Assembly (NCBI GenBank): GCA_003612335.1 | Contig: RAYO01000016.1 | Span: forward strand, 1 to 64,000 | Direction of reading: 5' to 3' | DNA length: 64,000 bases | DNA from: a bacterium 1xD42-67 | GTDB taxonomy: Bacteria > Bacillota > Clostridia > Oscillospirales > Oscillospiraceae | Shown here: piece by piece, positions 11,063 to 45,777 of the stretch | Position numbering within the stretch: position 1 is the first letter of the stretch | How the letters are laid out: every line of letters starts with the position of its first letter | The notes under the pieces: generated by a model | The model's input: only the letters and a program-made list of their open reading frames with translations | Database searches by the model: none | Told to the model about the DNA's origin: nothing | Position numbers and translations under genes: made by a program

Positions 11063-11740
11063 ATGTCCTGGAGCGAATGTCTCTATCGTTACCACCTGGC
11101 CCACGGCGGGCAGTTCCTGGCCGGCGAGGATGACGACGGCCTGCTGATCCTCCCCTGGAAGGACCGGCCCCTGGCGGCGGACCTGTCTGCAGCCAGCGCG
11201 GGGCGGGGCGGGACCTTCCGCTATGTCCGGGCCCGGGCGCCTGTCACCCTGGCCAAGCCCTACCGGCTGACCATCGGGGCGGAGAAGGCCCTGTCCGGCG
11301 GGATGAACGCCCTTCTGCGGGCGGTGCCCGGCCTGACCGAGCTCTCCCTCCTCCCGGCGGACGTGGGCTACCCGGAGGTGACCAAAAAGCGGCTGATCCG
11401 CACCGACAACGTCCCCTTCACCAAACTGGTGCTGAGCAGCCTGGACTTCCGCAGTGCTTTGCTGGCCTGCCCGGAGGACAAAGTGGAGATCCGCCCCGGA
11501 CCGGGGGGCGAGGGGCTGCACCTGGTCTCCGTCACCACGGCGACCGCCGTCGGCGGTCTGGCCGGCGACGGCGGCGGCTGGTGTCTGGATACTGTCAGCG
11601 ACTATGAGGTCTCCCTGCGCACCGAGGAGGAGCTGGCCCAGATCGCCCGGCGGGCGGAAGAGGAGTTCTTCCCCCGGATGGACCGCTTCCTGGAGCTGGC
11701 CCGGGCCGCCTGCGCCTCGGTCACTCAGTGGGCCATGTGA
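11063..11740 (+). CDS. Protein of unknown function (225 aa)
   Basis: I do not recognise this soluble 225-residue protein. It has no signal peptide or membrane segment. Its N-terminus is MSWSECLYRYHLAHGGQF and the C-terminal part is an acidic helix (EEELAQIARRAEEEFFPRMDRFLELARAA). The start has a strong GGAGG eight bases upstream. Codon use is GC-rich like the neighbours, so it looks native and expressed. It lies between mutL and an XRE/DUF6809-like pair and overlaps the convergent small gene by 20 bases. No function is proposed. Confidence 0.75.
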   Translation: MSWSECLYRYHLAHGGQFLAGEDDDGLLILPWKDRPLAADLSAASAGRGGTFRYVRARAPVTLAKPYRLTIGAEKALSGGMNALLRAVPGLTELSLLPADVGYPEVTKKRLIRTDNVPFTKLVLSSLDFRSALLACPEDKVEIRPGPGGEGLHLVSVTTATAVGGLAGDGGGWCLDTVSDYEVSLRTEEELAQIARRAEEEFFPRMDRFLELARAACASVTQWAM

Positions 11741-11978
11741 AGATCTCCGCCATCAGGCGGGCCCCCACACAGACGCCGGAGGCGAACCGGGCCTCCCCCC
11801 GATAGCCCAGACGCTGTTCGCTCAGCTCCAGGAACCGGTCCATGGATCCCACGCCCAGGACCGCCTGGATCTTTTCGCTGAGGGCAAGATACTCCTCATC
11901 GATCCTTTTCTGTTCCAGGGCACTGCATTTGGACGTGGTCGGGAAAAGGCCGTACAGCTCCTCTAAGATACTGCGCAT
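11721..11978 (-). CDS. Small helical protein, DUF6809-like (module 1)
   Basis: The 85-residue protein begins MRSILEELYGLFP and ends with FASGVCVGARLMAEIF. It resembles the short Clostridia family I know as DUF6809: an N-terminal LEELY motif, a charged middle helix and a C-terminal FxxGxxxGxxLM helix. An earlier ATG at 12026 would overlap the -10 box of its own promoter, so it cannot be in the transcript; the start at 11978 has GAGGTG nine bases upstream. It is divergent from an XRE gene and shares a palindromic operator with it. Function unknown. Confidence 0.75.
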   Translation of the reverse strand: MRSILEELYGLFPTTSKCSALEQKRIDEEYLALSEKIQAVLGVGSMDRFLELSEQRLGYRGEARFASGVCVGARLMAEIFTWPTE

Positions 11979-12024
11979 CACACAACACACCTCGTTAGTT
12001 CGATCAAATTTGACTTCTATCTTC

Positions 12025-12053
12025 ATTATAGTTCGATCTTATCGAATTGTCAA
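12025..12053 (-). promoter_or_regulatory. Consensus promoter with palindromic operator (module 1)
   Basis: On the minus strand, TTGACA (12048-12053), a 17-bp spacer and TATAAT (12025-12030) form a perfect consensus promoter for the small helical gene. The spacer is filled by the perfect palindrome TTCGAT-CTT-ATCGAA (12032-12046). A second half-site, GTTCGATCA, lies at 11998-12006 in the leader. The obvious candidate ligand is the divergent XRE protein. Confidence 0.8.
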
Positions 12054-12064
12054 GGGGGAGAACT

Positions 12065-12307
12065 ATGTTTTCTACAGAACTTTTTGGTCAGCGCCTGCGG
12101 ATCGCCCGGAAGTCCGCTGGTGAGAAGCAAGAGGAGCTGGGACAGCTCCTCGGCGTGGGGAAGAGCCAGATCAGCGAGCTGGAGCGCGGCTCTGCCTCTA
12201 CTACATTGGAAAAACTGTCTCTCATCTGCCAGCACTACAACGTCTCCGCCGACTATCTCCTGGGCCTCACCGATGAGCCGGAGCCATACAAGAGGAAAAA
12301 GATATGA
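12065..12307 (+). CDS. XRE-family transcriptional regulator (module 1)
   Basis: This 80-residue protein is a single helix-turn-helix domain: LRIARKSAGEKQEELGQLL, then recognition helix GVGKSQISELERG, and a C-terminal SADYLLGLTDEP tail. It is Cro/cI-like and probably dimeric. The ATG follows GGGGGAG. It is divergent from the DUF6809-like gene and its last codon overlaps the miaA start (ATGA), so miaA translation is coupled to it. It probably represses the small gene and itself through the palindrome at 12032-12046; that is inference from position. Confidence 0.88.
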   Translation: MFSTELFGQRLRIARKSAGEKQEELGQLLGVGKSQISELERGSASTTLEKLSLICQHYNVSADYLLGLTDEPEPYKRKKI

Positions 12308-13245
12308 GCTCCAAGATCGTCGTCATCACCGGCCCCACGGCGTCAGGCAAGACCTGGCTGGCGGTGGAGCTGGCCAAGCGGTACGGCGGCGAGGTGGTGT
12401 CCGCCGACTCCATGCAGATCTACCGCCGGATGGACATCGGCACCGCCAAGCCCACCGCCGAAGAGATGCAGGGGATCCCCCACCACATGCTCGATGTGGC
12501 CGATCCCGGGGAGGACTTCTCTGCCGCCCGGTACGTAGACATGGCGTCCCGCTGTGTGGAGGACATCCTGGCCCGGGGGGCGCTGCCCATCCTGGCCGGG
12601 GGGACGGGGCTGTATCTCGACTCTCTCCTCTCCGGCCGGACCTTCGCCGCCTTCGACCCCTCCAGCCCCCTCCGCGGCCAGCTGGAGGAGCGGTATGCCC
12701 GCGAGGGGGGGCAGGCCCTGCTGGAGGAGCTGGCCCGGACCGATCCAGAGGCCGCCGCCCGCCTCCACCCCAACGACGCCAAGCGGATCGTCCGGGCCCT
12801 GGAGGTGTGGCTCACCACCGGGAAGACCATCACCCAGCACGACCGGGAGACCAAAGCCCTCCCCCCCCGGTATGACGCCCTCACCCTCTCCCTGGACTTT
12901 GAACGCCGGGAGGACATGTGGGACCGGATCGACCGGCGGGTGGACCGGATGATGGAGGCCGGCCTGGCCGGAGAGGTCCGGGCCCTGCTGGACAGCGGAG
13001 TGCCGCGGCGATGCACCGCCATGCAGGCCATCGGCTATAAGGAGATGGTCCCGGTCGTCTCCGGAGACATGGCGGCGGAAGATGCCGCCGCCCAGATCAA
13101 GCTCCGCTCCCGGCAGTACGCCAAGCGCCAGCGCACCTGGTTCCGCCGGGACAAGCAGGCAAAGCCCCTGATCTGGGGACCAGTCCCCGATCTTGCGGAG
13201 GTGCTACAGCGTTCGACAGACTATCTGGAAGAATTTGGTATATGA
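12304..13245 (+). CDS. miaA: tRNA dimethylallyltransferase MiaA
   Basis: MiaA transfers a dimethylallyl group to A37 of tRNAs, making the substrate of MiaB. The 313-residue protein has the P-loop GPTASGKTWLA (about residues 8-18), SADSMQIYRRMDIGTAKP, and the C-terminal RQYAKRQRTWFRRD motif. Length is normal. Its ATG overlaps the TGA of the XRE gene; AGAGGAAAAAG upstream serves as Shine-Dalgarno. In related genomes miaA follows mutL directly; here three genes have come between. Confidence 0.95.
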   Translation: MSSKIVVITGPTASGKTWLAVELAKRYGGEVVSADSMQIYRRMDIGTAKPTAEEMQGIPHHMLDVADPGEDFSAARYVDMASRCVEDILARGALPILAGGTGLYLDSLLSGRTFAAFDPSSPLRGQLEERYAREGGQALLEELARTDPEAAARLHPNDAKRIVRALEVWLTTGKTITQHDRETKALPPRYDALTLSLDFERREDMWDRIDRRVDRMMEAGLAGEVRALLDSGVPRRCTAMQAIGYKEMVPVVSGDMAAEDAAAQIKLRSRQYAKRQRTWFRRDKQAKPLIWGPVPDLAEVLQRSTDYLEEFGI

Positions 13246-13299
13246 TAGAGGCGCTCCGGCGGGACGGCCCGCCGAATAGAAAAAAGGAGTGTGCTACAT

Positions 13300-13539
13300 A
13301 TGCCGAACACCAACAACCTCCAGGAGATCTTCCTCACCCAGGCCCGCCGGGAGCGCCGGCCGGTCACCATGTTCCTGATGAACGGCTTCCAGATGCGGGG
13401 CTTCATCACCGGGTTCGACGCCTTCACGGTGGTCCTCACCAGCGACGGCAAACAGCAGATCATCTATAAACACGCCATCTCCACCATCGTCCCCGAGCGG
13501 CCGATCTCTCTGGCGCCGCCGGAGGAGGAGGGCGCCTGA
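13300..13539 (+). CDS. hfq: RNA chaperone Hfq
   Basis: The 79-residue protein has Sm1 ([17 protein letters not shown]) and Sm2 (IIYKHAIST) motifs of the hexameric RNA chaperone Hfq. The ATG at 13300 lies ten bases after AAAGGAG; a GTG three codons earlier is too close to that site. The short C-tail ending PPEEEGA is typical of Firmicutes. Hfq helps small RNAs pair with mRNA, although its role in Firmicutes is limited. It closes the miaB-mutS-mutL-miaA-hfq group. Confidence 0.93.
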
Positions 13540-13611
13540 CGCCCTCCCTCCAGGGGCCGTCCCGGACGGCTGCCCCCATATCCATCCCCACCGACAGAAA
13601 GAGAGCCCCCT

Positions 13612-14880
13612 ATGAAGCAAGGTAAGCCCCTGATCTCCCTCGTGATCCTGGCCATGGCGGCTGTGATCGCTATCTATCTCGCCTATTACGTCTTCGATTC
13701 TATGGACGAGCCCTATCAGATCGCCCATGCCTACGCTTACACCGCCTATGACAGCGTGGCGGCGGAGGGACTGGTGGTGCGGCAGGCGGTCCTGATCCCC
13801 TCCCAGCCCGGGATCCTGGAGGTCACCCGGGCGGAGGGGGAGAAGGTGGGCAAGGGCCAGCAGATCGCCCTGGTCTATCGGGACACCCAGGCCCAGGCGG
13901 ACCAGGCCCAGATCGAGGCCCTGCAGATGGAGACCGAGCTGCTGGAATACGCCATCGCTCAGGGCGGCAGCCTGGATTCCGCCGCCCGGCTGGACGAGGA
14001 GATCCTCCAGGCGGTGGCGGAGCTGCGGGCCTCTTACGCCCAGGGGGACTGCACCCAGCTTTGGGAGCAGGTGATGGACGTGAAGAGCGGGGTGCTCAAG
14101 CGGGGCTACACCTATGGCGAGGGCCTCACCTCCACCGACCTGTCCGACCGCCTGCGCAAGCTCAGCGGGGAGCTCTCCGTCCTCACCCAGCAGTCCGCCC
14201 GGGCCACCACCCGGATCTCCGCTCCCGTGCCGGGGGTGTTCTCCAACCTGGTGGACGGCTATGAGTCCCGCCTCACCCCCGAGACCGTCCTCCAGCTCAC
14301 CCCCTCCTCCCTCCAGGCCCTCATCGACGATCCCGCCGGACAGGACGCCGGCGCCATGGGCAAGCTGATCACCTCCAACACCTGGTCCTTTGCCGCCTCC
14401 CTGAGCAAGGAGGCCGCCGGCCGGCTGGAGGAAGGGGGGCGCGCCACCCTGCGCTTCTCCGGGGAGCTGGCCCGGGACGTGGAGATGCAGGTGGACAAGA
14501 TCGGCCCCACCGAGGGGGACCGGACCCTGGTGGTCTTCTCCTCCAACCGCTACCTCACCTCCACCACCCTGCTCCGCCACCAGACCGCCGAGCTGATCTT
14601 CGACAGCTTCTCCGGCCTGCGCATCCCCAAGGAGGGGCTGCGCCTGGTGGAGACCACCGTCCAAGACAAGGAGACCGGCGAGACCATCCAGGTCAAGAAG
14701 CTGGGGGTCTACGCTCTGGTCAACGGCCGGGCCGAGTTCCGGGAGGCCAGCATCGTCCACGAGGGCAGCGACTACTATGTGGTCCGTCCAGTGGGCACCG
14801 GCCCCAAGATCCTTCGGGCCGGCGACAGCATCATCATCCACGCCACCGGTCTCCAGGAGGGGCTGCTGCTGGCGGGATGA
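13612..14880 (+). CDS. HlyD-like membrane-anchored adaptor protein
   Basis: The 422-residue protein has one N-terminal membrane segment (about 7-28) and then an extracytoplasmic part with a lipoyl/biotinyl-like hairpin (GILEVTRAEGEKVGKGQQIALVYRD), a coiled-coil stretch and a beta-rich C-terminus with a RIPKEGLRLV motif. This is the HlyD/membrane-fusion layout. No ABC exporter gene is adjacent; instead yggS, sepF and divIVA follow, an arrangement I know from other Clostridia, so a role at the septum or in sporulation is possible. Shine-Dalgarno: AAAGAGAG. Confidence 0.75.
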   Translation: MKQGKPLISLVILAMAAVIAIYLAYYVFDSMDEPYQIAHAYAYTAYDSVAAEGLVVRQAVLIPSQPGILEVTRAEGEKVGKGQQIALVYRDTQAQADQAQIEALQMETELLEYAIAQGGSLDSAARLDEEILQAVAELRASYAQGDCTQLWEQVMDVKSGVLKRGYTYGEGLTSTDLSDRLRKLSGELSVLTQQSARATTRISAPVPGVFSNLVDGYESRLTPETVLQLTPSSLQALIDDPAGQDAGAMGKLITSNTWSFAASLSKEAAGRLEEGGRATLRFSGELARDVEMQVDKIGPTEGDRTLVVFSSNRYLTSTTLLRHQTAELIFDSFSGLRIPKEGLRLVETTVQDKETGETIQVKKLGVYALVNGRAEFREASIVHEGSDYYVVRPVGTGPKILRAGDSIIIHATGLQEGLLLAG

Positions 14881-14929
14881 CCGCCCCTGTGCCCCCTCCG
14901 ATCTCCATTTTAAGAAAGAAGAGATAGTT

Positions 14930-15640
14930 ATGGATCTGTCCCAAAACATCAAGGCCGTCCAGGAAGAGATCGCCGCCGCCGCCCGGGCCGCTGGACGCGA
15001 CCCCGCTTCCGTCGCCCTGTGCGCCGCCACCAAGGTGCAGACCGACGAGACGATCCGCGCCGCCATCGCCGCCGGGATCCGCCTGTGCGGCGAGAACCGG
15101 GTCCAGGAGCTCACCGCGCACCTGGCCGCAGACGCCTACGCCGGCGCAGAGGTCCACTTCATCGGCCACCTCCAGACCAACAAGGTGAAGCAGGTGGTGG
15201 GCAGGGTGTCTCTGATCCACTCGGTGGGCTCCCCGCGGCTCCTCCAGGCCATCGACGCCCAGGCGGACAAGCTGGGGATCGTCCAGGATATCCTGCTGGA
15301 GGTCAACGTGGCCGAGGAGGAGAGCAAGGGGGGCTGTCTCCCCAAAGACCTGTCCGCACTGGCAGAGCTGGCCTGGGGCTGTCCCCATGTCCGCCTCCGG
15401 GGATTGATGGCGATCCCCCCCATCTCCTCCTCTCCCGGGGCCAATCGAAAATATTTTGCCCAGATTCGCCGATCTCTTGTTGACATCAAGGCGAAAATGA
15501 CGGATAATCAAGATATTATGGACTGTCTGTCTATGGGCATGAGCGCCGACTACATGGATGCCATCGCAGAAGGCGCCACCCTTGTCCGGGTGGGTACTGC
15601 GCTCTTCGGTCCACGCCCTCCCATGGGCGCCGCCCGCTGA
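14930..15640 (+). CDS. yggS: YggS-family PLP homeostasis protein
   Basis: This 236-residue protein is a fold-III-type single-domain PLP-binding protein (YggS/YlmE/PROSC). The PLP lysine lies in CAATKVQ (about residue 37). Other family motifs are FIGHLQTNKVK and LSMGMSADYMDAI. The family maintains pyridoxal-phosphate balance and has no known catalytic reaction. The start at 14930 matches the family N-terminus; Shine-Dalgarno GAAAGAAGAG. It stands directly before sepF, the usual ylmE-ylmF (sepF) order. Confidence 0.93.
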   Translation: MDLSQNIKAVQEEIAAAARAAGRDPASVALCAATKVQTDETIRAAIAAGIRLCGENRVQELTAHLAADAYAGAEVHFIGHLQTNKVKQVVGRVSLIHSVGSPRLLQAIDAQADKLGIVQDILLEVNVAEEESKGGCLPKDLSALAELAWGCPHVRLRGLMAIPPISSSPGANRKYFAQIRRSLVDIKAKMTDNQDIMDCLSMGMSADYMDAIAEGATLVRVGTALFGPRPPMGAAR

Positions 15641-15677
15641 GGAAAAATATACTGCTGAGAAAAGAGGATCCGAGCTT

Positions 15678-16151
15678 ATGGGAATCTTTGACGAATTCAA
15701 GCGGCTGGCCCACCCCTATGAGGACGAGGACGAAGATGATTTCGACGATTTCGACATCTCCCCCCGTCCGGTGGAGCGCCGGGAGCGCCCGGAGCGCGCC
15801 CCCCGCTCTGAGAGCTATCCCTCCTCTATGGAGGATGACCGCCGCAGCAACAAGGTCGTGAACATCCGGGCCGCCACCCAGCTCCAGGTCGTGCTGGTGA
15901 AGCCCGAGCGCTTCGAAGACGCCTCCGCCATCGCCGACCACCTGCGGGAGAAGCGCACCGTGGTCCTCAACCTGGAGTCCACCAACAAGGAGATCGCCCG
16001 CCGGATCCTGGACTTCCTCTCCGGGGCGGCCTACTCCCAGGAGGGCAAGGTGAAGAAGGTGGCCATCTCCACCTACATCATCACCCCTTACAATGTGGAC
16101 ATCCTGGGCGACCTCATCGACGAGCTGGAGAACAACGGACTGTATTTCTAA
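15678..16151 (+). CDS. sepF: Cell division protein SepF
   Basis: SepF anchors FtsZ to the membrane and shapes the Z-ring in Gram-positive bacteria. The 157-residue protein has an N-terminal amphipathic helix (MGIFDEFKRLAHPY), an acidic then basic linker, and the C-terminal SepF domain (about 60-150) with KPERFEDASAIADHLR and FLSGAAYS. The start at 15678 gives the needed membrane-binding helix; an upstream in-frame extension through yggS was rejected. Shine-Dalgarno AAAGAGGAT. Confidence 0.93.
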   Translation: MGIFDEFKRLAHPYEDEDEDDFDDFDISPRPVERRERPERAPRSESYPSSMEDDRRSNKVVNIRAATQLQVVLVKPERFEDASAIADHLREKRTVVLNLESTNKEIARRILDFLSGAAYSQEGKVKKVAISTYIITPYNVDILGDLIDELENNGLYF

Positions 16152-16166
16152 GGGGGTATATCACTG

Positions 16167-16544
16167 ATGGGACTGAAACTGCCCTGTGTCCTGCTCCTCA
16201 CAGCCGCCCTGCTGGCCGGCTGCGCCGGAGCGCCCTCCAAGGGCGGCAGCCAGCCCCCTCCAGATCAGTCCCCGCCCGCCGCCGTCTCGGAGCCGGAGGC
16301 CCCCGCCGGGCCCGTCCTAGTGGACGACCCGGATTCCCCCTACCCCATGGCGGTGGAGCGCTGGACCGTGGACATGGACGGGGACGGCCCCTACCATGCG
16401 GAGGGGGCTGATGAGGGGATCGTCCTGCGGCAGTATCTCTACGGCACCGCCCACGTGGACGGCATGGGGGACCTGGTGACCACCCTGAGCTGGAAGGGCG
16501 GCCAGCCGGTGGTGTTGGATCAGCGGTTCGAATGGTATTATTAG
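16167..16544 (+). CDS. Small lipoprotein of unknown function
   Basis: The 125-residue protein has a lipoprotein signal with lipobox LLAGCA (Cys about 19), followed by a Pro/Ser/Glu-rich spacer and a compact domain (about 55-125) rich in Asp, Gly and Tyr. The Shine-Dalgarno AGGGGG is present. It lies between sepF and divIVA with 15- and 24-base gaps, so it is probably in that operon and may act at the division site. No family was recognised. Confidence 0.75.
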   Translation: MGLKLPCVLLLTAALLAGCAGAPSKGGSQPPPDQSPPAAVSEPEAPAGPVLVDDPDSPYPMAVERWTVDMDGDGPYHAEGADEGIVLRQYLYGTAHVDGMGDLVTTLSWKGGQPVVLDQRFEWYY

Positions 16545-16568
16545 ACGATAGAGCAGGGAGGGATCACT

Positions 16569-17360
16569 ATGCTCACACCACAGGAGGTCTCTGAGCGCGC
16601 CTTCTCCAAGGCGTCCTTCGGCGGCTACAACATGGCTCAGGTGGACGAGTTCCTGGACATCCTCACCGGGGATTACTCCGCGCTGTTCAACGAGAACGCA
16701 GTTTTGAAGAGCAAGATGAAGGTGCTGGTAGACAAGGTGGAGGAGTATCGTTCCACCGAGGAGGCCATGCGCAAGGCCCTGATGGCCGCCCAGCGGATGG
16801 CCGACGACCTGGTGAAGGAGGCCGAACGGAAGCGGGACGCCCTGCTGGCCCAGGCCGAGGAAGAGGTCCAGGCCCGGAAGGCCGGCATCACCAAGGAGCT
16901 GGAGGCGGAGGAATACCGGCTGAAGGCCGCCCAGCAGTCCACCGCCGCCTTCGTAGAGAAGGTCCGGGCCCTCCAGGTCCAGGAGGCAGAGCATCTGTCC
17001 CGGCTGGCGGAGCTCTATCCTCCTGACACCACCCCCGCGCCCGACCCAGTGGAGGAGAAGGCCTCCGAGATCGACGACAACGTCCAGCGCCTGCTGGCCC
17101 AGGCCATGGAGGCCGCCGCCGCAGAGAATCTCCGGGCCAAGGCCGCCGAGGAGGCGCCGGAGGATATGTCCGACACCGCCGAGTTCACCCCTGGCCTCCC
17201 GCCCGAGGAGGGCGAGGACTATGAGGACGATCCTCCTCCCCGCCAAGATCCAGAGGACGAGGAGGACTACGAGGACGAGGAGGACGGCGAGGAGGGCGGT
17301 CCCTCTGGCCGGATCGATTTCGGCCGTCTCCAGTTCGGCCGGGACTATGAGATCAGATGA
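16569..17360 (+). CDS. divIVA: DivIVA-domain protein
   Basis: The 263-residue protein starts with the DivIVA membrane-curvature domain (LTPQEVSERAFSKASFGGYN, then MAQVDEFLD), followed by a long coiled coil (about 50-150) and an acidic, disordered C-terminal tail rich in Glu/Asp (about 190-250). DivIVA proteins mark negatively curved membrane at septa and poles and recruit division or sporulation factors. Position after sepF is the classic division cluster. The acidic tail is longer than in Bacillus DivIVA. Shine-Dalgarno GGGAGGG. Confidence 0.9.
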   Translation: MLTPQEVSERAFSKASFGGYNMAQVDEFLDILTGDYSALFNENAVLKSKMKVLVDKVEEYRSTEEAMRKALMAAQRMADDLVKEAERKRDALLAQAEEEVQARKAGITKELEAEEYRLKAAQQSTAAFVEKVRALQVQEAEHLSRLAELYPPDTTPAPDPVEEKASEIDDNVQRLLAQAMEAAAAENLRAKAAEEAPEDMSDTAEFTPGLPPEEGEDYEDDPPPRQDPEDEEDYEDEEDGEEGGPSGRIDFGRLQFGRDYEIR

Positions 17361-17364
17361 ATGA

Positions 17365-17385
17365 GGGGCGGCCCCAGGCCGCCCC
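17365..17385 (+). terminator. GC-rich hairpin after divIVA
   Basis: GGGGCGGCC (17365-17373), loop CCA and GGCCGCCCC (17377-17385) form a 9-bp perfect stem five bases after the divIVA stop. A pyrimidine-rich run without a clean T-tract follows, so termination may be partial. Confidence 0.5.
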
Positions 17386-17497
17386 GACGGCTCTCCCTCT
17401 CAAAAGACAGCTCCGTCCCCGATACACATCAGATGACCCCTCCCCCGCCCGGGGGCAGGGGCGTTGCCGCGTTCCCCCAGACTGTCAAGGATCGAGG

Positions 17498-17513
17498 TGT
17501 TCCACGTGAAACT
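17498..17513. promoter_or_regulatory. parS centromere site overlapping the mfd start
   Basis: TGTTCCACGTGAAACT matches the ParB site TGTTNCACGTGAAACA at all but the last base. The GTG in its CACGTG core is the probable mfd start codon. Confidence 0.8.
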
Positions 17514-37121: not shown

Positions 37122-37150
37122 ATTATAGCACTTCATTTTTGACGTGTCAA
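37122..37150 (-). promoter_or_regulatory. Consensus promoter with palindromic operator (module 2)
   Basis: On the minus strand TTGACA (37145-37150), a 17-bp spacer and TATAAT (37122-37127) are perfect consensus. The palindrome TTGACGTGTCAA (37139-37150 on the plus strand) covers the -35, so binding there should block RNA polymerase. Confidence 0.82.
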
Positions 37151-37411: not shown

Positions 37412-37424
37412 AAGAGTGACAGCA

Positions 37425-38154: not shown

Positions 38155-38157
38155 GCC

Positions 38158-38877
38158 ATGGAACAGATCATTTCCGCCGGACTGGAGGAGCTGGGGCTGA
38201 CAGGCCGCGTCCCGAAGGACGCCCCCGCCCTGCTGGCCCAATACGGACAGATGCTGCTGGAGAAGAACCAGGTGATGAACCTCACCGCCATCCGGGACTT
38301 GGAAGGCGTGGCCCGGCTGCACATGCTGGACTGCGCAGCCCTGCTGAAGTTCTGCGACTTTGAGGGCAAGACCCTCATCGACGTGGGCACCGGGGCGGGC
38401 TTTCCCGGGATGGTGCTGAAGATCCTGGTCCCCTCCCTAAAGCTCACCCTGCTGGACTCCCTGGGCAAGCGGCTGGACTGGCTCTCAGAGGTCTATGAGG
38501 ACCTGGACTGCATGGACAGCATCACCGCCTTCCACGGCCGGGCGGAGGAATTTTCCGCCCCAATAAAGGGCTATCGGGACAGCTTCGACCTTGTCACCGC
38601 CCGGGCGGTGGCCGAGCTGCGGGTGCTGTGCGAACTGTGCCTCCCCTTCGTGAAGGTGGGGGGCCGGTTCCTGGCCATGAAGTCCACCAACAGCGATCAA
38701 GAGCTGGAAGACGCCGCCCACGCCATCAAGCTCCTGGGGGGACGGATGGCCGGCGTGGAGGACTACAGGATCCCAGGCACAGAGGTGGTCCACCGGCTGA
38801 TCATCATCGAAAAGGTGGCCCCCACTCTGAAGGGCTACCCCCGACGCTGGGCCAGGATGCAAAAAGAACCTCTCTGA
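38158..38877 (+). CDS. rsmG: 16S rRNA (guanine527-N7)-methyltransferase RsmG
   Basis: RsmG methylates G527 of 16S rRNA with SAM. The 239-residue protein has KNQVMNLTAIRD, the SAM motif LIDVGTGAGFPGMVLKI (about 79-95) and TARAVAELRVLCE. In most Firmicutes rsmG follows mnmG near noc and oriC; mnmE and mnmG are not in this window. It starts three bases after an unknown membrane gene. Confidence 0.94.
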   Translation: MEQIISAGLEELGLTGRVPKDAPALLAQYGQMLLEKNQVMNLTAIRDLEGVARLHMLDCAALLKFCDFEGKTLIDVGTGAGFPGMVLKILVPSLKLTLLDSLGKRLDWLSEVYEDLDCMDSITAFHGRAEEFSAPIKGYRDSFDLVTARAVAELRVLCELCLPFVKVGGRFLAMKSTNSDQELEDAAHAIKLLGGRMAGVEDYRIPGTEVVHRLIIIEKVAPTLKGYPRRWARMQKEPL

Positions 38878-38942
38878 CAAGCAGTTTCCAGGAAAAACGA
38901 CTGAGATTTGTAAATTTTTTCTAAGATCTTTTCAAATAATGG

Positions 38943-38972
38943 TTGACGGACAGCAGATCTATGATATATATT
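38943..38972 (+). promoter_or_regulatory. Possible promoter of the MinD-like gene
   Basis: TTGACG (38943-38948) is followed 16-18 bp later by TATATA/TATATT (38965-38972). It stands about 27 bp before the start codon, close but workable. Confidence 0.45.
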
Positions 38973-38998
38973 TAGATGTAGGTCAGGAGGTCATTTCC

Positions 38999-39733
38999 AT
39001 GGGGACGGTAATCTCGATCACATCAGGAAAGGGCGGCACCGGGAAGACCTCGATCACCGGCGGCGTGGCCGCCGCGCTGGCCCTGATGGACCACCGGGTC
39101 CTGTGTATCGACATGGACATCGGTCTGCGGAACCTGGACATCACCCTGGGCCTGAACGACCGGGCCCTGATGGATTTTTCTGACGTGGCCCTGGGGCGCT
39201 GTCCCCTGGCCCGGGCGGCGGTGGAGCACCCCGATCTGAAGGGCCTGGCCCTCCTCACCGCCCCCATGTCCCTCCCCGCCAGCCTCACTGCGGACAAGGT
39301 GCGCGCTCTGCTGTCCACCGCCCGCACTGTATACGACTATATCCTCATCGACTCCCCCGCCGGCCTGGGCCCGGGCTTCCGCCTGGCCGTCTGCGGGGCC
39401 GACCGGGCCCTGGTCGTCGCCACCAACGACGCCTCCTCCCTCCGAGACGCCCAGCGCACGGTAGCCGAGCTGGAGGACCTGCGCCAGGTCCATCTGGTGA
39501 TGAACCGGATCCAGACCCGGCTGCTGCGCAAGCTGCGCGCCACCATCGACGATGCGATGGATGCCGCCGGACTGCCCCTCATGGGGGTGGTCCCAGAGGA
39601 TCCCCAGGTCATCCTGTGCGCCAACCTGGGCCAGCCTCTGGCCGTCCGGGGCCGGAAGGGCGCCGCTCTGGCCTGCTGGAACATCGCTTTGCGGCTGGAG
39701 GGCCAGCGGGTGCCGATCATGAAGATGCGATGA
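38999..39733 (+). CDS. MinD-like ATPase without MinC or MinE
   Basis: The 244-residue protein has a deviant Walker A (TSGKGGTGKTSITGG, about 8-22), LCIDMDIGLRNLDI and Walker B YILIDSPAGLG, typical of MinD/FlhG. The ATG follows AGGAGG. The C-terminus ends RVPIMKMR and lacks the basic amphipathic helix with which MinD binds membrane. No minC or minE lies in the window. It is followed 31 bp later by an MGS-fold protein. It may be a MinD relative with another cargo. Confidence 0.8.
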   Translation: MGTVISITSGKGGTGKTSITGGVAAALALMDHRVLCIDMDIGLRNLDITLGLNDRALMDFSDVALGRCPLARAAVEHPDLKGLALLTAPMSLPASLTADKVRALLSTARTVYDYILIDSPAGLGPGFRLAVCGADRALVVATNDASSLRDAQRTVAELEDLRQVHLVMNRIQTRLLRKLRATIDDAMDAAGLPLMGVVPEDPQVILCANLGQPLAVRGRKGAALACWNIALRLEGQRVPIMKMR

Positions 39734-39764
39734 TGCCCGATATCACAAAGGAGGTATTGATGCC

Positions 39765-40181
39765 ATGAACATCGCGATAATGAGCCACACGAAGAAGCAG
39801 GATCTGATGGTACAGTTCTGCACTGCCTACTGCGGTGTCCTGTCCAAGCATTCGGTCTGCGGCACCAACGCCACCGGACGCATGGTAGCCGAGGCCACCG
39901 GACTGCCTGTCAACCTGTTCCTGTCCCACGAGCACGGGGGCATCGAGCAGATCGGCCAGCGGATCATCTACAATGAGATCGATATGGTCCTCTTCTTCAA
40001 CTCCCCTCAGGACAACGAGATGGACAAAGACGTGCTGTATATCACCCGCCTGTGTGACCAGCACTCCGTCCCGGTCGCCACCAATGTGGCCACCGCCGAG
40101 CTGCTCATCCACGGCCTGGCCCGGGGCGACCTGGACTGGCGGGAGGGCATGAACCCCAACCGGGTGCCCTTCGCCCTGTGA
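39765..40181 (+). CDS. MGS-fold protein, probably not an active methylglyoxal synthase
   Basis: The 138-residue protein clearly aligns with methylglyoxal synthase (start MNIAIMSHTKKQ, end of fold PVATNVATAELLI). The catalytic residues differ: the Escherichia Asp20 position is Thr9, Asp71 is Ile60 (GGIEQIG in place of GGDQQ), Asp91 is Ser80 (FFNSP in place of FFWDP) and His98 is Met86. The phosphate loop SGPxGG is SHEHGG. Conversion of DHAP to methylglyoxal therefore looks unlikely. It probably binds another ligand. It follows the MinD-like gene. Confidence 0.85.
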   Translation: MNIAIMSHTKKQDLMVQFCTAYCGVLSKHSVCGTNATGRMVAEATGLPVNLFLSHEHGGIEQIGQRIIYNEIDMVLFFNSPQDNEMDKDVLYITRLCDQHSVPVATNVATAELLIHGLARGDLDWREGMNPNRVPFAL

Positions 40182-40201
40182 CCTGTCTGAACGGCATCCC
40201 G

Positions 40202-40241
40202 CGCTCCCGTCCCGACCCCGTGGATGGGAGCGTCTGTTTTT
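40202..40241 (+). terminator. Intrinsic terminator after the MGS-fold gene
   Basis: CGCTCCCGTC (40202-40211) pairs with GATGGGAGCG (40223-40232) and is followed by TCTGTTTTT. Confidence 0.8.
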
Positions 40242-40312
40242 CAGGGCATGTCACGAAGGGCGGGCAGCCCTCTCGTCCTGCCGCATACACTTAAGAGAAA
40301 GGAATCTTCACT

Positions 40313-41671
40313 ATGGCTAAGGTACGGCCCCATACCCTGTCCGGCTTCATGGAGCTCCTCCCCGCCCGGCAGATCCAATTCGACCGGATGATCTCTATCA
40401 TCCGAGAATCCTTCTCCCTCTACGGCTTCACCCCCCTGGACACCCCCCTGATCGAGGCCAGCGAGGTCCTGCTGGCCAAGGGCGGGGGCGAGACCGAAAA
40501 GCAGATCTACCGCTTCACCAAGGGAGACAGCGACCTGTCCCTCCGCTTCGACCTGACGGTCCCCCTGGCCAAGTATGTCGCCATGAACTACGCCCATCTG
40601 GCCTTCCCCTTCCGCCGCTTCCAGATCGGCAAAGTCTACCGGGGCGAGCGGGCCCAGCGGGGCCGGTTCCGGGAATTCTATCAGGCGGACATCGACGTCA
40701 TCGGCGACGGCCGGCTGGATATCTTCAACGATGCGGAGGTCCCCTCCATCATCTACCGCACCTTCACCGCCCTGGGCCTGGAGCGCTTCCAGATCCGGGT
40801 GAACAACAGGAAGGTCCTCAACGGCTTCTATGCCATGGAGGACCTGACCGACAAGGCCGGGGACATCATGCGGACAGTGGACAAGCTGGAGAAGATCGGC
40901 GGGGAGAAGGTCCGCGCCATCCTCACCGACGATCTGGGACTGACAGGAGGACAGGCCGAGTCCATCCTGCGCTTCATCTCCATCCAGGGCTCCAACGCCC
41001 AGGTCCTCTCCTCGCTGGAGAGCTGGCGGGGACGCCATGCGCTCTTCGACCAGGGCCTGGACGAGCTGACCGCCGTGGTCAAGGATCTGGCCGCTTTCGG
41101 CGTCCCCGAGGACCACTTCAAGGTGGATCTGACCATCGCCCGGGGGCTGGATTACTACACCGGCACCGTTTATGAGACCGCTATGCTGGACCACCCGGAG
41201 ATCGGTTCCATCTGCTCCGGGGGCAGATATGACAACTTAGCGGAATATTATACTGACAAACAACTCCCCGGCGTGGGAATCTCCATCGGCCTGACCCGTC
41301 TCTTCTTCGTCCTGGAGGACCAGGGCTATCTGAACGACGATCTGAACACCGCCCCCGCCGACGTGCTGATCCTCCCCATGACCGACGGCCTGAGCCCGGC
41401 CATCCAGCTGGCCACCAGCCTGCGGACGTCAGGGATCCGGGTGCAGCTCTACAGCGAGCAGAAAAAATTCAAGCAGAAGATGAGCTACGCCGACAAGCTG
41501 GGTGTGCCCTACGTCATCTTCCTGGGGGAGGACGAGATCGAGCAGGATATGGTCTCCCTGAAAAACATGCGTACCGGCGAACAGGAGCTGATATCCGCCG
41601 CCGATGCGGTCACGAAGATCGCTGCGACCTTGGATGCCGCCGGCGATGCCCCTATCCGGGATAAGGTATGA
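40313..41671 (+). CDS. hisS: Histidine-tRNA ligase
   Basis: HisS charges tRNA-His. The 452-residue class II synthetase has motif 2 (FQIGKVYRGERAQRGRFREFYQ), the histidine motif GLDYYTGTVYE, and a C-terminal anticodon domain. Shine-Dalgarno GAAAGGAAT. No T-box leader is visible in the 130 bp upstream. HisS and AspS are neighbours as in many bacteria, here with one small gene between. Confidence 0.94.
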   Translation: MAKVRPHTLSGFMELLPARQIQFDRMISIIRESFSLYGFTPLDTPLIEASEVLLAKGGGETEKQIYRFTKGDSDLSLRFDLTVPLAKYVAMNYAHLAFPFRRFQIGKVYRGERAQRGRFREFYQADIDVIGDGRLDIFNDAEVPSIIYRTFTALGLERFQIRVNNRKVLNGFYAMEDLTDKAGDIMRTVDKLEKIGGEKVRAILTDDLGLTGGQAESILRFISIQGSNAQVLSSLESWRGRHALFDQGLDELTAVVKDLAAFGVPEDHFKVDLTIARGLDYYTGTVYETAMLDHPEIGSICSGGRYDNLAEYYTDKQLPGVGISIGLTRLFFVLEDQGYLNDDLNTAPADVLILPMTDGLSPAIQLATSLRTSGIRVQLYSEQKKFKQKMSYADKLGVPYVIFLGEDEIEQDMVSLKNMRTGEQELISAADAVTKIAATLDAAGDAPIRDKV

Positions 41672-42150
41672 AAAAGCGTATCACGATCCCCCTGGCGATC
41701 GTCGGCTGTTTGGCCATATCCTGTCTGGGCCTCCTGCTGGCGGATATAACTGCAAAGCGCTCCTTTGACCAGCTTTCCAGAGGATATGCTACGGCGCCGC
41801 CCGCCCGTGAAGCACAGAACATCGGCGTACTGATAGAAGGCGACTATCCTGGCCTGAGCGACGAGCCGGTCACAGCAAAAGAGGCCCAGTCAGGCCGGAA
41901 GGTCATGTATGCCTTGCGGCAGCAGAGATACAGCTGGATCCCTCCTTTTTTCAAGCCTCAGGATGGAGGAATCGCCATCGGCCAGACCAGAGGCTGTTCC
42001 CCGGAAGAGATCGCCTACTGGGACGGTCGATATTTGTGGCTACCCAAAGATCATGACGGCCACTGGCGGGGCTACTCTCCCTCCTCACCTAAGGAGCTGG
42101 AAGAGGCACTGCAAGCCGCATATAAACTACAAAAAGAAATTAGAGACTAA
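41668..42150 (+). CDS. Unknown exported or membrane-anchored protein
   Basis: The 160-residue protein has one N-terminal hydrophobic segment (about 5-26, KKRITIPLAIVGCLAI) and an outer domain rich in Trp, Tyr and Pro (YLWLPKDHDGHWRGY). Its ATG overlaps the hisS stop (ATGA). Codon use is less GC-biased than hisS and aspS, suggesting later insertion between them. No family was recognised. Confidence 0.7.
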   Translation: MKKRITIPLAIVGCLAISCLGLLLADITAKRSFDQLSRGYATAPPAREAQNIGVLIEGDYPGLSDEPVTAKEAQSGRKVMYALRQQRYSWIPPFFKPQDGGIAIGQTRGCSPEEIAYWDGRYLWLPKDHDGHWRGYSPSSPKELEEALQAAYKLQKEIRD

Positions 42151-42176
42151 AATAATACAAATAGGAGTTGATCTCA

Positions 42177-43964
42177 ATGGGTGATATGAGCACCTACTAC
42201 CGCACCCACACCTGCGGGGAGCTGCGCATGGAGCAGGTGGGCCAGACGGTCACCTTGGCCGGCTGGATGGAGAACCTGCGGGAGGTGGGCAAGGACCTGG
42301 CCTTCCTGGTCCTGCGGGATTTTTACGGCACCACCCAGATGGTGATCGAGACGGAGGACATGGCCCAGGCTATCAGCGGTCTGAACAAGGAGACGGTCAT
42401 CTCCGTCACCGGCACGGTCCGGGAACGGGACAGTAAGAACCCCAAGCAAACCACTGGCGACATCGAGGTGGTCCCCTCTAAGATCGAGGTACTGGGCAAG
42501 TGCCGGCACAACGAGCTGCCCTTCCCCATCACTCGCTCCCGAGAGGCGGACGAATCCGCCCGGCTGAGATACCGTTATCTGGACCTGCGCAACCCGGAGG
42601 TGAAGGACAACATCGTCCTGCGGTGCCAGGTGGTATCCGCCCTCCGCGCCGCCATGACTAGCCACGGCTTTTTGGAGATCACCACCCCGATCCTGACCGC
42701 CTCCTCCCCCGAGGGGGCCCGGGACTACCTGGTGCCCTCCCGGAAGCACCCCGGCAAGTTCTACGCCCTGCCCCAGGCCCCCCAGCAGTTCAAGCAGCTG
42801 CTCATGGCCTCCGGCTTCGACAAGTACTTTCAGATCGCCCCCTGCTTCCGGGACGAGGACGCCCGGGGAGACCGCTCCCCCGGGGAGTTCTACCAGCTGG
42901 ACATGGAGATGGCCTTCGCCGACCAGGAGGACGTCTTTGCCGTGCTGGAGGACGTGCTCCCCCCCATCTTTGCCAAATACGGCAAGTATAACACCGCCTC
43001 CACCGCTCCTTTCCGGCGCATCCCCTACCTGGAGGCCATGGAAAAGTACGGCACGGACAAGCCCGACCTGCGCATCGACCTGACGGTGCAGGACCTGACC
43101 CAGCTGCTGGCCGGCTGCGGCTTCCCGCCCTTTGAGAACCAGCAGGTAAAGGCGGTGGTGGTGTCCGGCTTCGAGGGGAGCCGGAAACAGATCGACAAGC
43201 TGTGCGCCGACGTGGAGGTCCAGACGGGGAACAAGGTGTACTGGTTCCGCTATGATGAGAAGGGGGAGCTGGTGGGCGGAATCTCCAAATTCCTCCAGCC
43301 CATCAAGGACCTGGCAGTGGAGGCCCTGACCCTCGCCCCCGGCTGTCTGGTGGGCCTGTCCGCTGGAACGCTGCTGGCGGCGCAAAAAACCGCCGGGGTA
43401 TTCATCAAGACCGTGGCGCCCCTCTGCCCCGCCCACTTCGTCAAGGAGCGGTATGAGTTCTGCTGGATCGTGGATTTCCCCATGTATGAGATCGGCGAGG
43501 AGTCCGGCGAGCTGGAATTCTGCCACAACCCCTTCTCCATGCCCAACGGCGGCCTGGAGATCATCGAAAAGGCCATCAAGGGGGAGGCGGACCCCCTGTC
43601 CATCACCGCCTTCCAGTACGACCTGGTGTGCAACGGGGTGGAGCTCAGTTCCGGCGCGGTGCGCAACCACGACCCGGAGACCATGGTCAAGGCCTTCTGG
43701 ATGGTGGGCCTGGAGGAAGAGGACGTGCGGAGCAAGTTCCCCGCCATGTACAACGCCTTCACCTATGGCGCGCCTCCCCACGCGGGCATCGCCCCAGGAG
43801 TGGACCGGATGGTCATGCTCCTCTCCGGAGAGGAGTCCATCCGGGAGGTGATCCCCTTCCCCATGAACAAGAACGCCCAGGATCTGATGATGGGCGCGCC
43901 CTCCGCCGTGGAGCAGAATCAGCTGGACGAACTGAACATCGCCATCACCAAAACTGAGGAATAG
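42177..43964 (+). CDS. aspS: Aspartate-tRNA ligase
   Basis: The 595-residue class II enzyme has an N-terminal OB-fold anticodon domain, the bacterial GAD insertion (about 285-425), motif 2 (IAPCFRDEDARGDRSPGEFY) and motif 3 (GIAPGVDRMVMLL). Length is typical of the bacterial type, which may be non-discriminating when asnS is absent; this cannot be judged here. The ATG at 42177 was chosen for its TAGGAG; an ATG nine bases later is also possible. Confidence 0.95.
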   Translation: MGDMSTYYRTHTCGELRMEQVGQTVTLAGWMENLREVGKDLAFLVLRDFYGTTQMVIETEDMAQAISGLNKETVISVTGTVRERDSKNPKQTTGDIEVVPSKIEVLGKCRHNELPFPITRSREADESARLRYRYLDLRNPEVKDNIVLRCQVVSALRAAMTSHGFLEITTPILTASSPEGARDYLVPSRKHPGKFYALPQAPQQFKQLLMASGFDKYFQIAPCFRDEDARGDRSPGEFYQLDMEMAFADQEDVFAVLEDVLPPIFAKYGKYNTASTAPFRRIPYLEAMEKYGTDKPDLRIDLTVQDLTQLLAGCGFPPFENQQVKAVVVSGFEGSRKQIDKLCADVEVQTGNKVYWFRYDEKGELVGGISKFLQPIKDLAVEALTLAPGCLVGLSAGTLLAAQKTAGVFIKTVAPLCPAHFVKERYEFCWIVDFPMYEIGEESGELEFCHNPFSMPNGGLEIIEKAIKGEADPLSITAFQYDLVCNGVELSSGAVRNHDPETMVKAFWMVGLEEEDVRSKFPAMYNAFTYGAPPHAGIAPGVDRMVMLLSGEESIREVIPFPMNKNAQDLMMGAPSAVEQNQLDELNIAITKTEE

Positions 43965-44013
43965 ATCCAGACGCCCCGCCTTCCCGGGCGGGGCGGTCTA
44001 TATGGAGGAGACT

Positions 44014-45174
44014 ATGAAACGACTCCTGGCCCTGACTCTATCCGTCCTCCTTCTGGCGGGGTGCGCCCCCGCCGCCCAGCCGCCGGAGGATGTGAGCACA
44101 CCTCCCCCCTCCCCTCCCCCGGTGGTCCAGCCGGTACCGGAGCCCGACCCCGACCCCCGGCAGGAGGCCATCGACGCTCTCCTCTCCTCCATGTCCCCGG
44201 AGGAGAAGGTGGGCCAGCTCTTCTTCGCCCACTGCCCTGCCAAAAACAAGGCGGAGCTGGCGGCGGAGCACCATCTGGGGGGCTACCTCCTCTTCCGCCG
44301 GGACTTTAAGGACAAGAGCGTCCAGCAGGTCCAGGAGGAGATCGCTGCCTGGCAGGAGGGCATGACCATCCCTCTGCTCATCGGTGTGGATGAGGAGGGG
44401 GGCACCGTGGCCCGGGTGAGCGGCAACCCTAAGATCCGGAAGGATCGTTTCCTCTCCCCCGGAAAGCTGTATCAGCAGGGGGGGCTGGAAGCCATCCTGA
44501 CCGACTGCCAAGAAAAGGACGCCCTCCTCCTCTCACTGGGAATCAACGTCAACTTCGCCCCGGTGGCCGATCTGTCCACCGACCCCAAGGACTTCATCTA
44601 TGACCGGACCCTGGGCCTGGGGGTGGAAGAGACCTGCCGGTACATCTCCGCCGTGACCGCCCAGATGGAGGAGGACGGGATGGGGAGCGTCCTCAAGCAC
44701 TTCCCGGGCTACGGCTCCAACCAGGACACCCACACCGGCTCCGCCCTGGACGAGCGCCCCCTGGAACGGCTGCGGCAAGTGGATCTGCGGCCCTTCCGGG
44801 CGGGGATCCACGCCGCCGAGGGGGGGACCGCCGCTGTCCTCATGTCCCACAACATCCTCCAGGAGCTGGATCCGGACCGCCCCGGCTCCCTCTCCCCCGT
44901 CCTGTACCAGCTCCTCCGGGAGGAGATCGGCTTCAACGGCCCCGCCCTCACCGACGACCTGGCCATGGCGGCCATCACCGGATATGCCGGCGAGGAGAGC
45001 CCGGCGGTGCTGGCCCTGGCGGCGGGGTGTGACATGGTGGTCCTCAGCGACTTCCAGAAGGAGATCCCCAGAGTGCTGGCCGCCCTGGAGGACGGCGCCC
45101 TCTCTCAGGAGCGGGTGGACGAGGCCGTCTCCCGGGTCCTGGGCTGGAAATACGATCTGGGACTGCTGTCATGA
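44014..45174 (+). CDS. nagZ: Lipoprotein beta-N-acetylhexosaminidase (GH3, NagZ-type)
   Basis: The 386-residue protein has a lipoprotein signal (lipobox LLAGCA, Cys about 17), a Pro-rich spacer and a GH3 domain. It keeps LLIGVDEEGGTVAR, KHFPGYG, the catalytic Asp-His loop (NQDTH) and the nucleophile motif LTDDLAM. Family enzymes release N-acetylglucosamine from muropeptides; in Firmicutes they act outside the cell. Shine-Dalgarno GGAGGAG before ATG 44014. The KHFPGHG histidine is Tyr here. Confidence 0.9.
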   Translation: MKRLLALTLSVLLLAGCAPAAQPPEDVSTPPPSPPPVVQPVPEPDPDPRQEAIDALLSSMSPEEKVGQLFFAHCPAKNKAELAAEHHLGGYLLFRRDFKDKSVQQVQEEIAAWQEGMTIPLLIGVDEEGGTVARVSGNPKIRKDRFLSPGKLYQQGGLEAILTDCQEKDALLLSLGINVNFAPVADLSTDPKDFIYDRTLGLGVEETCRYISAVTAQMEEDGMGSVLKHFPGYGSNQDTHTGSALDERPLERLRQVDLRPFRAGIHAAEGGTAAVLMSHNILQELDPDRPGSLSPVLYQLLREEIGFNGPALTDDLAMAAITGYAGEESPAVLALAAGCDMVVLSDFQKEIPRVLAALEDGALSQERVDEAVSRVLGWKYDLGLLS

Positions 45175-45177
45175 CCA

Positions 45178-45218
45178 GGCCCCCGGCCGCCTTACCGGCG
45201 CTCCGGGGGCCCTTCTCT
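45178..45218. terminator. Bidirectional terminator between nagZ and module 3
   Basis: GGCCCCCGG (45178-45186) pairs with CCGGGGGCC (45203-45211), followed by a pyrimidine-rich run. It overlaps the end of the convergent small gene. Confidence 0.6.
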
Positions 45219-45467
45219 GCTCTTTTCACAGTACATCTCGCAGGACTCATACAGGATATCGTCGCACCAGCACTGGATGCCCTCCAGAAAACACATGTTC
45301 TCCAAACTGAGCTCCTCACAGCATCTCTGGGCGAACTCATCCAGCTGCTCCTTCAGGATACGGATCCGAAGGCTGAGCCGCCAGAGCTCATCTCCGGGGT
45401 CCCTCGGGTCGTTCCCCAATCTTTCCAGCTCACTGCTGTGCAGAGCACTGACCTCTTCCCTGTCCAT
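45192..45467 (-). CDS. Small helical protein (module 3)
   Basis: The 91-residue protein is acidic and mostly helical, with LSLRIRILKEQLDEFAQRCC and five further cysteines (for example QCWCDDILYESC). It is similar in size and place to the DUF6809-like proteins of modules 1 and 2 but lacks their Gly-rich last helix, so membership is uncertain. Start 45467 has GAGGTG upstream. It is divergent from an XRE gene with an inverted repeat between them. The cysteine content is unusual for this genome region. Confidence 0.7.
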   Translation of the reverse strand: MDREEVSALHSSELERLGNDPRDPGDELWRLSLRIRILKEQLDEFAQRCCEELSLENMCFLEGIQCWCDDILYESCEMYCEKSREGPPERR

Positions 45468-45484
45468 AGGATCACCTCTTCTGG

Positions 45485-45531
45485 AGTATATACGAATTTT
45501 GCATAAATAGCAATATGCAATATCCGCATAT
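45485..45531 (-). promoter_or_regulatory. Promoter and operator region (module 3)
   Basis: On the minus strand TTGCTA (45508-45513), a 17-bp spacer and TATACT (45485-45490) form a sigma-A promoter for the small gene. The inverted repeat ATATGC-7 bp-GCATAT (45513-45531) adjoins the -35. Further TGCAT/ATGC half-sites lie on both sides. Confidence 0.7.
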
Positions 45532-45558
45532 ACTATGCTGTCCAGAGGGGGTGGTAGA

Positions 45559-45777
45559 ATGCCGTTAAGGATTCGCGACCTGCGAGAGGACAGAGATCTC
45601 ACACAAGCAGAAGTTGCAGCACTTCTCAACGTTTCCCAGGCGACCTACTCTCGTTACGAGACCGAGACTCTGGGGATTCCCCACTCCTCTCTGGAGATTT
45701 TGGCGGACTACTACCACACCAGTGTGGACTATCTCCTGGGCCGCACCAGCGAGCCCGCCCCCTACCCGAAAAAATGA
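45559..45777 (+). CDS. XRE-family transcriptional regulator (module 3)
   Basis: The 72-residue protein is a single helix-turn-helix domain: IRDLREDRDLTQAEVAALLN, recognition VSQATYSRYE, and the tail SVDYLLGRTSEP shared with the other XRE proteins in the window. The ATG follows GAGGGGGTGG. A strong terminator follows directly, so unlike modules 1 and 2 it has no downstream partner on its strand. Confidence 0.87.
   Translation: MPLRIRDLREDRDLTQAEVAALLNVSQATYSRYETETLGIPHSSLEILADYYHTSVDYLLGRTSEPAPYPKK

Follow-up and report, generated by a model that had tools for sequence, protein, structure and literature searches.

We analysed a 64,000-nucleotide stretch of DNA (positions 1 to 64,000 of contig RAYO01000016.1, assembly GCA_003612335.1; hereafter the window) from the bacterium 1xD42-67, a member of the Oscillospiraceae within the Clostridia, in which short genes for XRE regulators stand divergent to genes for small helical proteins. 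Two of these gene pairs, locus 1 and locus 2, are by their sequences members of a large, real and unusual family of cassettes whose small protein resembles DUF6809, and a third pair, locus 3, has a similar layout. We consider it probable that each cassette is a repressor-locked effector module with exchangeable specificity. According to this model, the short XRE protein would keep the divergent small gene off by binding its own operator copies at the -10 box of that gene's exceptionally strong sigma-A promoter; if the XRE protein were lost, titrated or inactivated, the small protein would be made fast. The operators, the promoter and the DNA-binding half of the XRE would together form a lock, a unit that can be replaced by recombination, and after such a replacement some close species would keep an effector in its place while another lock controls it. 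The regulatory reading appears well supported by the comparisons presented here, and what is new, and also strongest, in the analysis is that locks appear to be exchanged.

Apparent exchange of the proposed locks at fixed sites

Exchange is clearest at the site of locus 3, where the comparison of the genomes G034 and G016 (L284 and L285; genomes, contigs and loci are cited by our own handles) spans about 3 kb and contains a single gap of roughly 120 bases. All shared 60-base windows outside positions 1261-1500 of this comparison were 85-100% identical, except one (73%). Within 1261-1500, which covers the intergenic region and the start of the XRE gene to about residue 50, identity was 45-67% in four windows, and the small proteins of the two loci are 98% identical. 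At the site next to miaA, eight genomes carry XREs of three helix types. Between helix types, the intergenic regions are 32-64% and the N-terminal parts of the XREs 41-72% identical, with miaA itself at 80-85%; within helix types, the intergenic regions are 84-99% identical, except for 55% between L150 and L157, the latter being a broken copy. The C-terminal part of the XRE is 71-94% identical in 27 of the 28 comparisons at this site, L150 and L155 being aligned at 43%.

A scan of 579 site pairs, each sharing at least 25 11-mers in one flank, yielded 203 pairs with a flank at least 85% identical. Among these, the intergenic region and the XRE N-terminal part were both below 70% in 59 pairs, the small gene in 75 and the XRE C-terminal part in 9. 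When both the flank and the small gene were at least 85% identical, 9 of the 24 site pairs had an intergenic region and XRE N-terminal part at 72% or less; by locus names these nine exchange pairs correspond to about eight sites, with G016 in three of the pairs. The site-pair and within-genome comparisons, like the correlations given below, cover 148 of the 149 cassettes found in the genus; the helix/operator and re-pairing comparisons cover 53 regions and the motif-pair count 60 of the 64 regions of an earlier set, the remaining regions and cassettes having a weak promoter or a missing or doubtful small gene. Misjoining of paralogous cassettes during assembly could in principle imitate such exchanged segments, as most of the genomes are drafts and the cassettes share conserved ends. 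We hold this explanation to be very improbable, given that helix and operator tend to change together and that exchanges are seen repeatedly, in several genome pairs; the single-contig genome G007 takes part in two of these (L350/L344 and L357/L347).

Re-pairing of both kinds is found outside orthologous sites. Near-identical small proteins occur with different XREs (90% versus 47%, L119/L112), and similar XREs occur with different small proteins (88% versus 32%, L144/L103), which argues against a bistable switch in which the small protein would be an antirepressor that binds its XRE and creates positive feedback, in the way that SinI binds SinR. That two small genes face a gene other than an XRE points in the same direction. 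The strict gene pairing, the position of the XRE C-terminal part as the least exchanged part of the cassette, and the finding that small-protein similarity tracks this part after controls (r 0.35) are what an antirepressor would lead one to expect; on balance we regard such a switch as unlikely.

Equal specificity was observed in 3 of 375 pairs within genomes versus 303 of 10503 pairs between genomes, a comparison confounded by orthology, and a locus-wise permutation gave one within-genome case against 2.4 expected (P 0.29), with a poor grouping in which one group holds 106 of the 148 cassettes. Under the lock-exchange model, the reason for exchange may be the avoidance of cross-talk between paralogues, or inhibitors or repressors brought by mobile elements. 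A more specific version, which we consider possible but not likely, is a chromosomal multi-copy heteroimmunity in which each cell has a set of orthogonal XRE locks on the strong promoters of DUF6809-like effectors; a mobile element's inhibitor, competing repressor or many operator copies would open a lock and free the effector, and an arms race would then drive exchange at the fixed loci.

Tandem forms suggest how lock exchange may happen. L339 (G511) and L099 (G002) comprise a complete small gene with its lock, the 5' end of a second small gene (recognised by eye in L339) and a second lock that differs in helix and operator. The second lock of L339 carries the operator motif of locus L048 of the 1xD42-67 genome together with the same helix type, and its promoter scores only 9/12. 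At L362:1700-2600, also in G511, a single small gene is followed by three XREs in tandem that differ in their recognition helices and have almost the same C-terminus, and L366 has two tandem XREs. Recombination between such tandem repeats would exchange locks, perhaps by way of intermediates with shared sequence at both sides, namely the 5' end of the small gene and, opposite, the end coding for the XRE C-terminus.

Promoter and candidate operators of the proposed lock

The small gene of locus 1 has a perfect sigma-A promoter, TTGACA-N17-TATAAT, on the minus strand at 12025-12053 (-10 box 12025-12030, -35 box 12048-12053), and the same perfect promoter precedes the small gene of locus 2 at 37122-37150, also on the minus strand. 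Three perfect sigma-A sites with spacers of 16-18 occur in the window and none in 100 shuffles of it; the third, at 54877-54906 on the minus strand, has no cassette linked to it. The whole genome contains 70 perfect TTGACA-N16-18-TATAAT sites, the reversed control none, and 12 of the 70 lie by their coordinates in cassette intergenic regions. Across the 149 cassettes, the small-gene promoter matches the consensus at 12/12 positions in 101 and at 11/12 in 41. In the earlier set, 39 of 64 regions reached 12/12, and among 1280 mononucleotide shuffles the best score was 11, in five of them. In 55 of these 64 regions, the distance from the end of the -35 box to the XRE start codon is 9-19 bp. Near four other XRE matches of the genome (C20:18805, C29:29036, C36:4240 and C31:26051), at most about 140 bp away, the opposite strand carries a perfect consensus promoter.

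In 35 of 60 regions, a 15-base motif is common to the stretch before the -10 box (plus strand) and to the -10/-35 stretch at p<=0.01, and in 46 of 60 at p<=0.05. The paired copies bracket the -10 box, and the motif is private to its cassette, in keeping with the private regulators proposed in a preliminary description of this DNA. At locus 1, copy 2 of the candidate operator is the palindrome TTCGATCTTATCGAA (TTCGATcttATCGAA) at 12032-12046, in the promoter spacer; copy 1, the imperfect TTCGATCAAATTTGA at 11999-12013, repeats it with p=0.005. At locus 2, the palindrome TTGACGTGTCAA at 37139-37150 coincides in part with the -35 box. The candidate operator CACTTCATTTTTGACGTG (CACTTCATTTTTGAcGTG) at 37129-37146 is nearly unchanged in L181, the only relative that carries this pair; the intergenic region of locus 2 gave no significant second copy of the motif (p=0.275). 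Locus 3 has overlapping palindromes at 45499-45531, TTGCAT...ATGCAA and ATATGC-n7-GCATAT (the latter at 45513-45531), which are similar in L285 and L287 and are replaced by other sequence in L284 and L286.

The candidate operators vary together with the recognition helix of the XRE. The helix GDTQIIGIE goes with the operator CTCAGT..GCTGAG in three of four cases, SVTQISE pairs with the motif CTAATAGCAAAG, NSYQAYE with TCTCTTAAAGTG and SSYQCYE with GCTTTAAGCATG. Operator similarity correlates with recognition-helix identity (r 0.29), and a partial correlation is retained after controlling for the N- and C-terminal parts of the XRE and for the small protein (partial r 0.095, p 0.001), whereas the controlled correlation with the C-terminus of the XRE is absent (r -0.02, p 0.93). 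Operator similarity follows the recognition helix, though weakly, once these controls are applied.

Spread of the cassette, window loci and the small gene

The genome of 1xD42-67 (3.56 Mb, 120 contigs) contains 11 DUF6809 matches (E<=1), of which eight are divergent to an HTH_3 match, and 73 HTH_3 matches in total; 36 XREs of at most 100 aa are present among its 73 XRE regions. Twenty short XREs of one kind were aligned, 16 of them with a divergent small open reading frame (ORF) taken as DUF6809-like; 14 of these 16 were recognised by a later profile, L030 and L044 being the two others. Of the other four short XREs, three, including that of locus 3, face an unrelated small ORF and one a longer, different ORF. 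By this count the genome would carry about 16 cassettes.

Of 41 genomes of the genus, that of 1xD42-67 included, 37 have a DUF6809 match (E<=0.01). Among the 75 matches examined, which are part of all matches in the genus, a divergent XRE within 400 bp accompanies 40 of the 57 weak ones and none of the 18 strong ones (at least 60 bits). The pairing in the genome and in the genus exceeds what chance would give. A profile of the cassette protein matches 51 of 64 genomes (E<=1e-6). From the loci of the genus, 169 XREs were extracted, 149 of them, from 35 genomes, with a recognised divergent small gene at a distance of 59-120 bp; these 149 pairs were selected as divergent, and the canonical DUF6809 genes L081-L098 are outside the counts both of these pairs and of the 149 small genes discussed below. 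All 11 loci found in genome contig records have the pair, including three of Lawsonibacter sp. and one of Flintibacter muris. Among 295 genomes of the order, 72 have a match (that of 1xD42-67 counted); of 29 loci from its other genera, 2 have a close divergent XRE and one further locus shows a weak XRE match about 250 bp away. The promoter pattern was rejected as a family-wide tag of the cassette: 151 of 200 genomes match it, yet only 3 of 30 loci read have a short XRE directly behind it, two (L238 and L244) with a recognised small gene and one with the XRE alone. Outside the genus, the divergent pair seems rare by the probes used. In L244 (G406, another genus of the family), the recognised small gene is accompanied by a run of four XRE matches, all on one strand.

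All three pairs of the window lie where the preliminary description had placed them, each with a minus-strand small gene divergent to a plus-strand XRE gene. Locus 1 encodes P0001 (11721-11978, minus strand, 85 aa) and the XRE P0002 (12065-12307, plus strand, 80 aa), which overlaps the start of miaA; its neighbours are MutL, an ORF without family match, and MiaA. Locus 2 encodes P0003 (36805-37089, minus strand, 94 aa), convergent to serS, and the XRE P0004 (37166-37411, plus strand, 81 aa, TTG start), between seryl-tRNA synthetase (SerS) and MscL. Locus 3 encodes P0005 (45192-45467, minus strand, 91 aa) and the XRE P0006 (45559-45777, plus strand, 72 aa), and is neighboured by a family 3 glycosidase (GH3) and an AbrB-type gene. 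P0002, P0004 and P0006 exceed the HTH_3 (PF01381) cut-off of 23 bits with 49.5, 55.1 and 43.9 bits, and P0006 also matches HTH_31 (46.2 bits). The resemblance of two of the small proteins to DUF6809 (PF20648) was confirmed, with P0001 (26.9 bits) and P0003 (26.8 bits) marginally below the gathering cut-off of 27 bits (E 9e-6), a cut-off that other cassette members pass (43.6 bits in G002, 40.4 in G036, 31.9 and 28.8 in the 1xD42-67 genome). P0005 has no match in Pfam or NCBIfam at E<=1, nor in PHROGs or PADLOC at E<=0.1, shows no detectable relation to the DUF6809-like profile (hhalign probability 2.5), and is present in 5 of 41 genomes, that of 1xD42-67 included.

Because its small protein is unrelated and the perfect TTGACA-N17-TATAAT promoter is absent from the usual place, locus 3 is, judged on these features, a look-alike with the same layout and not the same cassette as loci 1 and 2. 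The recurring plan and the good sigma-A promoter that had been attributed to all three loci therefore hold for loci 1 and 2 and more loosely, as regards the plan, for locus 3. The further proposal of an amplified regulatory cassette, and of finding it by looking for XRE genes divergent to DUF6809-like genes in the genome and its relatives, is borne out by the counts above; as a whole, the earlier interpretation is partly supported.

The locus 2 cassette stands between serS and mscL in 1xD42-67 and G021, its small protein being present in 1xD42-67 and one other of 60 genomes. In five other species read, the serS-mscL spacer holds a PilZ-like gene in four (for example L254:698-1501; one of the four was scanned, PilZ E 1e-10) and nothing in one. 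Among 30 miaA loci, the pair is intact in 1xD42-67 and six others, L157 has a frameshifted small gene with an intact XRE, L162 retains remnants of both genes, and at 21 the pair was not detected, including G002, which has the closest MiaA in the set; the five of these spacers that were read are short. The broken copy and the remnants document loss of the pair at this site and do not imply gain by transposition.

Cassette-type small genes were not seen apart from a repressor-like neighbour. Of 149 such genes (at least 40 bits), 146 face an XRE, two a possible ribbon-helix-helix (RHH) gene and one a contig end. In L365 and L368 (about 1775-2100), the small gene is divergent from the possible RHH gene across a new palindrome, ATACTGATTTCAGTAT or ATACTGATATCGGTAT, and the gene that replaces the XRE in L365 is weakly like RHH antitoxins (HicB model, E 0.004, below the cut-off). 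Separately, at C19:93410 of the 1xD42-67 genome (L028), a 13-base inverted repeat separates an XRE from a divergent gene whose 61 aa product bears a weak resemblance to RHH antitoxins. A broken small gene with a surviving XRE and intergenic region is found in L157 (frameshift, promoter 10/12) and L126 (promoter 12/12). Both genes are under purifying selection, with a median dN/dS of 0.24 for the small gene (189 pairs) and 0.086 for the XRE (158 pairs); one of the closest small-gene pairs, with few changes, has 1.55. This asymmetry of pairing, together with the selection, would fit an effector that must be held off, and does not imply toxicity.

The same asymmetry could be expected of a toxin-antitoxin system, in which the small protein would be the toxin and the XRE would neutralise it by binding as well as by repression: among the 148 small genes with sequence beyond their start, none lacks an XRE or possible RHH gene opposite, the XRE and promoter persist beside the broken small genes of L157 and L126, and antitoxin models give weak, sub-threshold matches to the XREs. 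Against it stand the exchange of partners, the lack of any match to a toxin family, and the divergent arrangement in place of the one operon of type II systems, which applies to the pairs selected as divergent and also to 146 of the 149 independently found small genes. We regard this reading as possible, though doubtful, and the antidote-like character suggested earlier is in the same way only hinted at, by small genes not seen without a repressor-like neighbour and XREs seen without an intact small gene.

Purifying selection on both genes, the conserved promoter and spacing, the housekeeping neighbours at the window loci, and three viral scans that found no viral contig with a relative all speak against the cassettes being immunity remains of prophages or conjugative elements with no present role beyond self-maintenance. 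The XREs do resemble phage repressors (PHROG 8, and the RstR model below its cut-off), canonical DUF6809 genes occur apart from XREs, and the open frame of the weak DUF6809 match L115 runs on into recombinase-like sequence; we nevertheless consider this origin rather improbable as a full account.

Several observations weigh against the repressor-lock model. Few genomes, most of them drafts, supply the strict swaps, and the pairs share genomes and are not independent events. The lock is at least 85% identical in 41 site pairs, with the small gene below 75% in 20 of these (lowest 66%) and at least 85% in 12; a claim of no reverse exchange, drawn from 0 of 579 pairs having the lock at least 85% and the small gene at most 65% identical, was dropped as threshold-dependent, because those 20 of the 41 lock-keeping pairs have a small gene at 66-75%. 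Tested one by one, palindromes beat shuffles in only 16 of 60 regions. The partial correlations have small values, and there is also one, after controls, between operator similarity and the small protein (r 0.11), which linkage would produce. Towards the XRE there is no recognisable promoter (mean best score 8.4/12; shuffles, scored for the other strand, 8.2). Canonical DUF6809 genes (L081-L098) live without an XRE, and the profile behind the 149 small genes was built from XRE-paired genes, so that orphans may be missed. No fold or family match in Pfam, NCBIfam, PHROGs, PADLOC or structure searches assigns an activity to the small protein: the structure model of P0001 is weak (pLDDT 63.7), a relative's all-helical model (pLDDT 78.6) has no match in the PDB and seven viral ones at E<=10, all with E above 0.001, and a profile search of solved structures gave weak matches alone (best E 0.02).

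Comparison with known systems

If the lock-exchange model holds, the repressor and operator exchange of heteroimmunity, familiar from phages, would be acting on many small chromosomal loci of gut Clostridia, giving a first testable context for part of DUF6809 and tens of candidate orthogonal repressor-promoter pairs. It makes concrete predictions: each XRE should bind and repress its own promoter, different locks should lack cross-talk, and release of the small protein should have an effect, presumably a harmful one. Our literature search found no paper naming DUF6809 and, judged by titles and the beginnings of abstracts, no description of an XRE combined with a DUF6809-like protein. The cassette proteins have the same length as DUF6809 and match most of its model; they differ from its strong members in the divergent XRE.

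In Caulobacter, XRE regulators that are related to those of phages have been described as a lineage-specific radiation; they act on a common gene set and can interact and, unlike the cassettes, come with no divergent small partner or operator exchange in the statements of the abstract (PMC10688885). Type II toxin-antitoxin systems with an XRE antitoxin likewise pair a repressor with a small protein whose gene is apparently not kept alone, and differ in the points already given, namely that the cassette genes are divergent, encode no known toxin and exchange partners. In lambdoid heteroimmunity, the repressor is replaced together with its operators. The cassettes differ from lambdoid systems in having two genes only, with one recognised repressor, and no prophage context was seen at the window loci. 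The lambdoid CI/Cro-type system PaaR2-YdaS/YdaT has a CI-like repressor with intergenic operators between two operons and possible bistability (PMC8630535).

The nearest known system in its working is RstR with the ig-2 region of CTX-type filamentous phages, where the small repressor is allele-specific for a linked operator-promoter region, and different alleles show no cross-repression and coexist in one strain (PMC11509585). All three window XREs score below the 80-bit cut-off of the RstR family model NF041951 (P0002 44, P0004 62.9 and P0006 38.9 bits). The likeness lies in the joint variation of repressor specificity and linked operator region; exchange of the two together with the rest kept, as in RstR, is found in the cassettes at the sequence level only. 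RstR acts on phage replication, whereas the cassettes are chromosomal, occur many per genome and would control a small protein.

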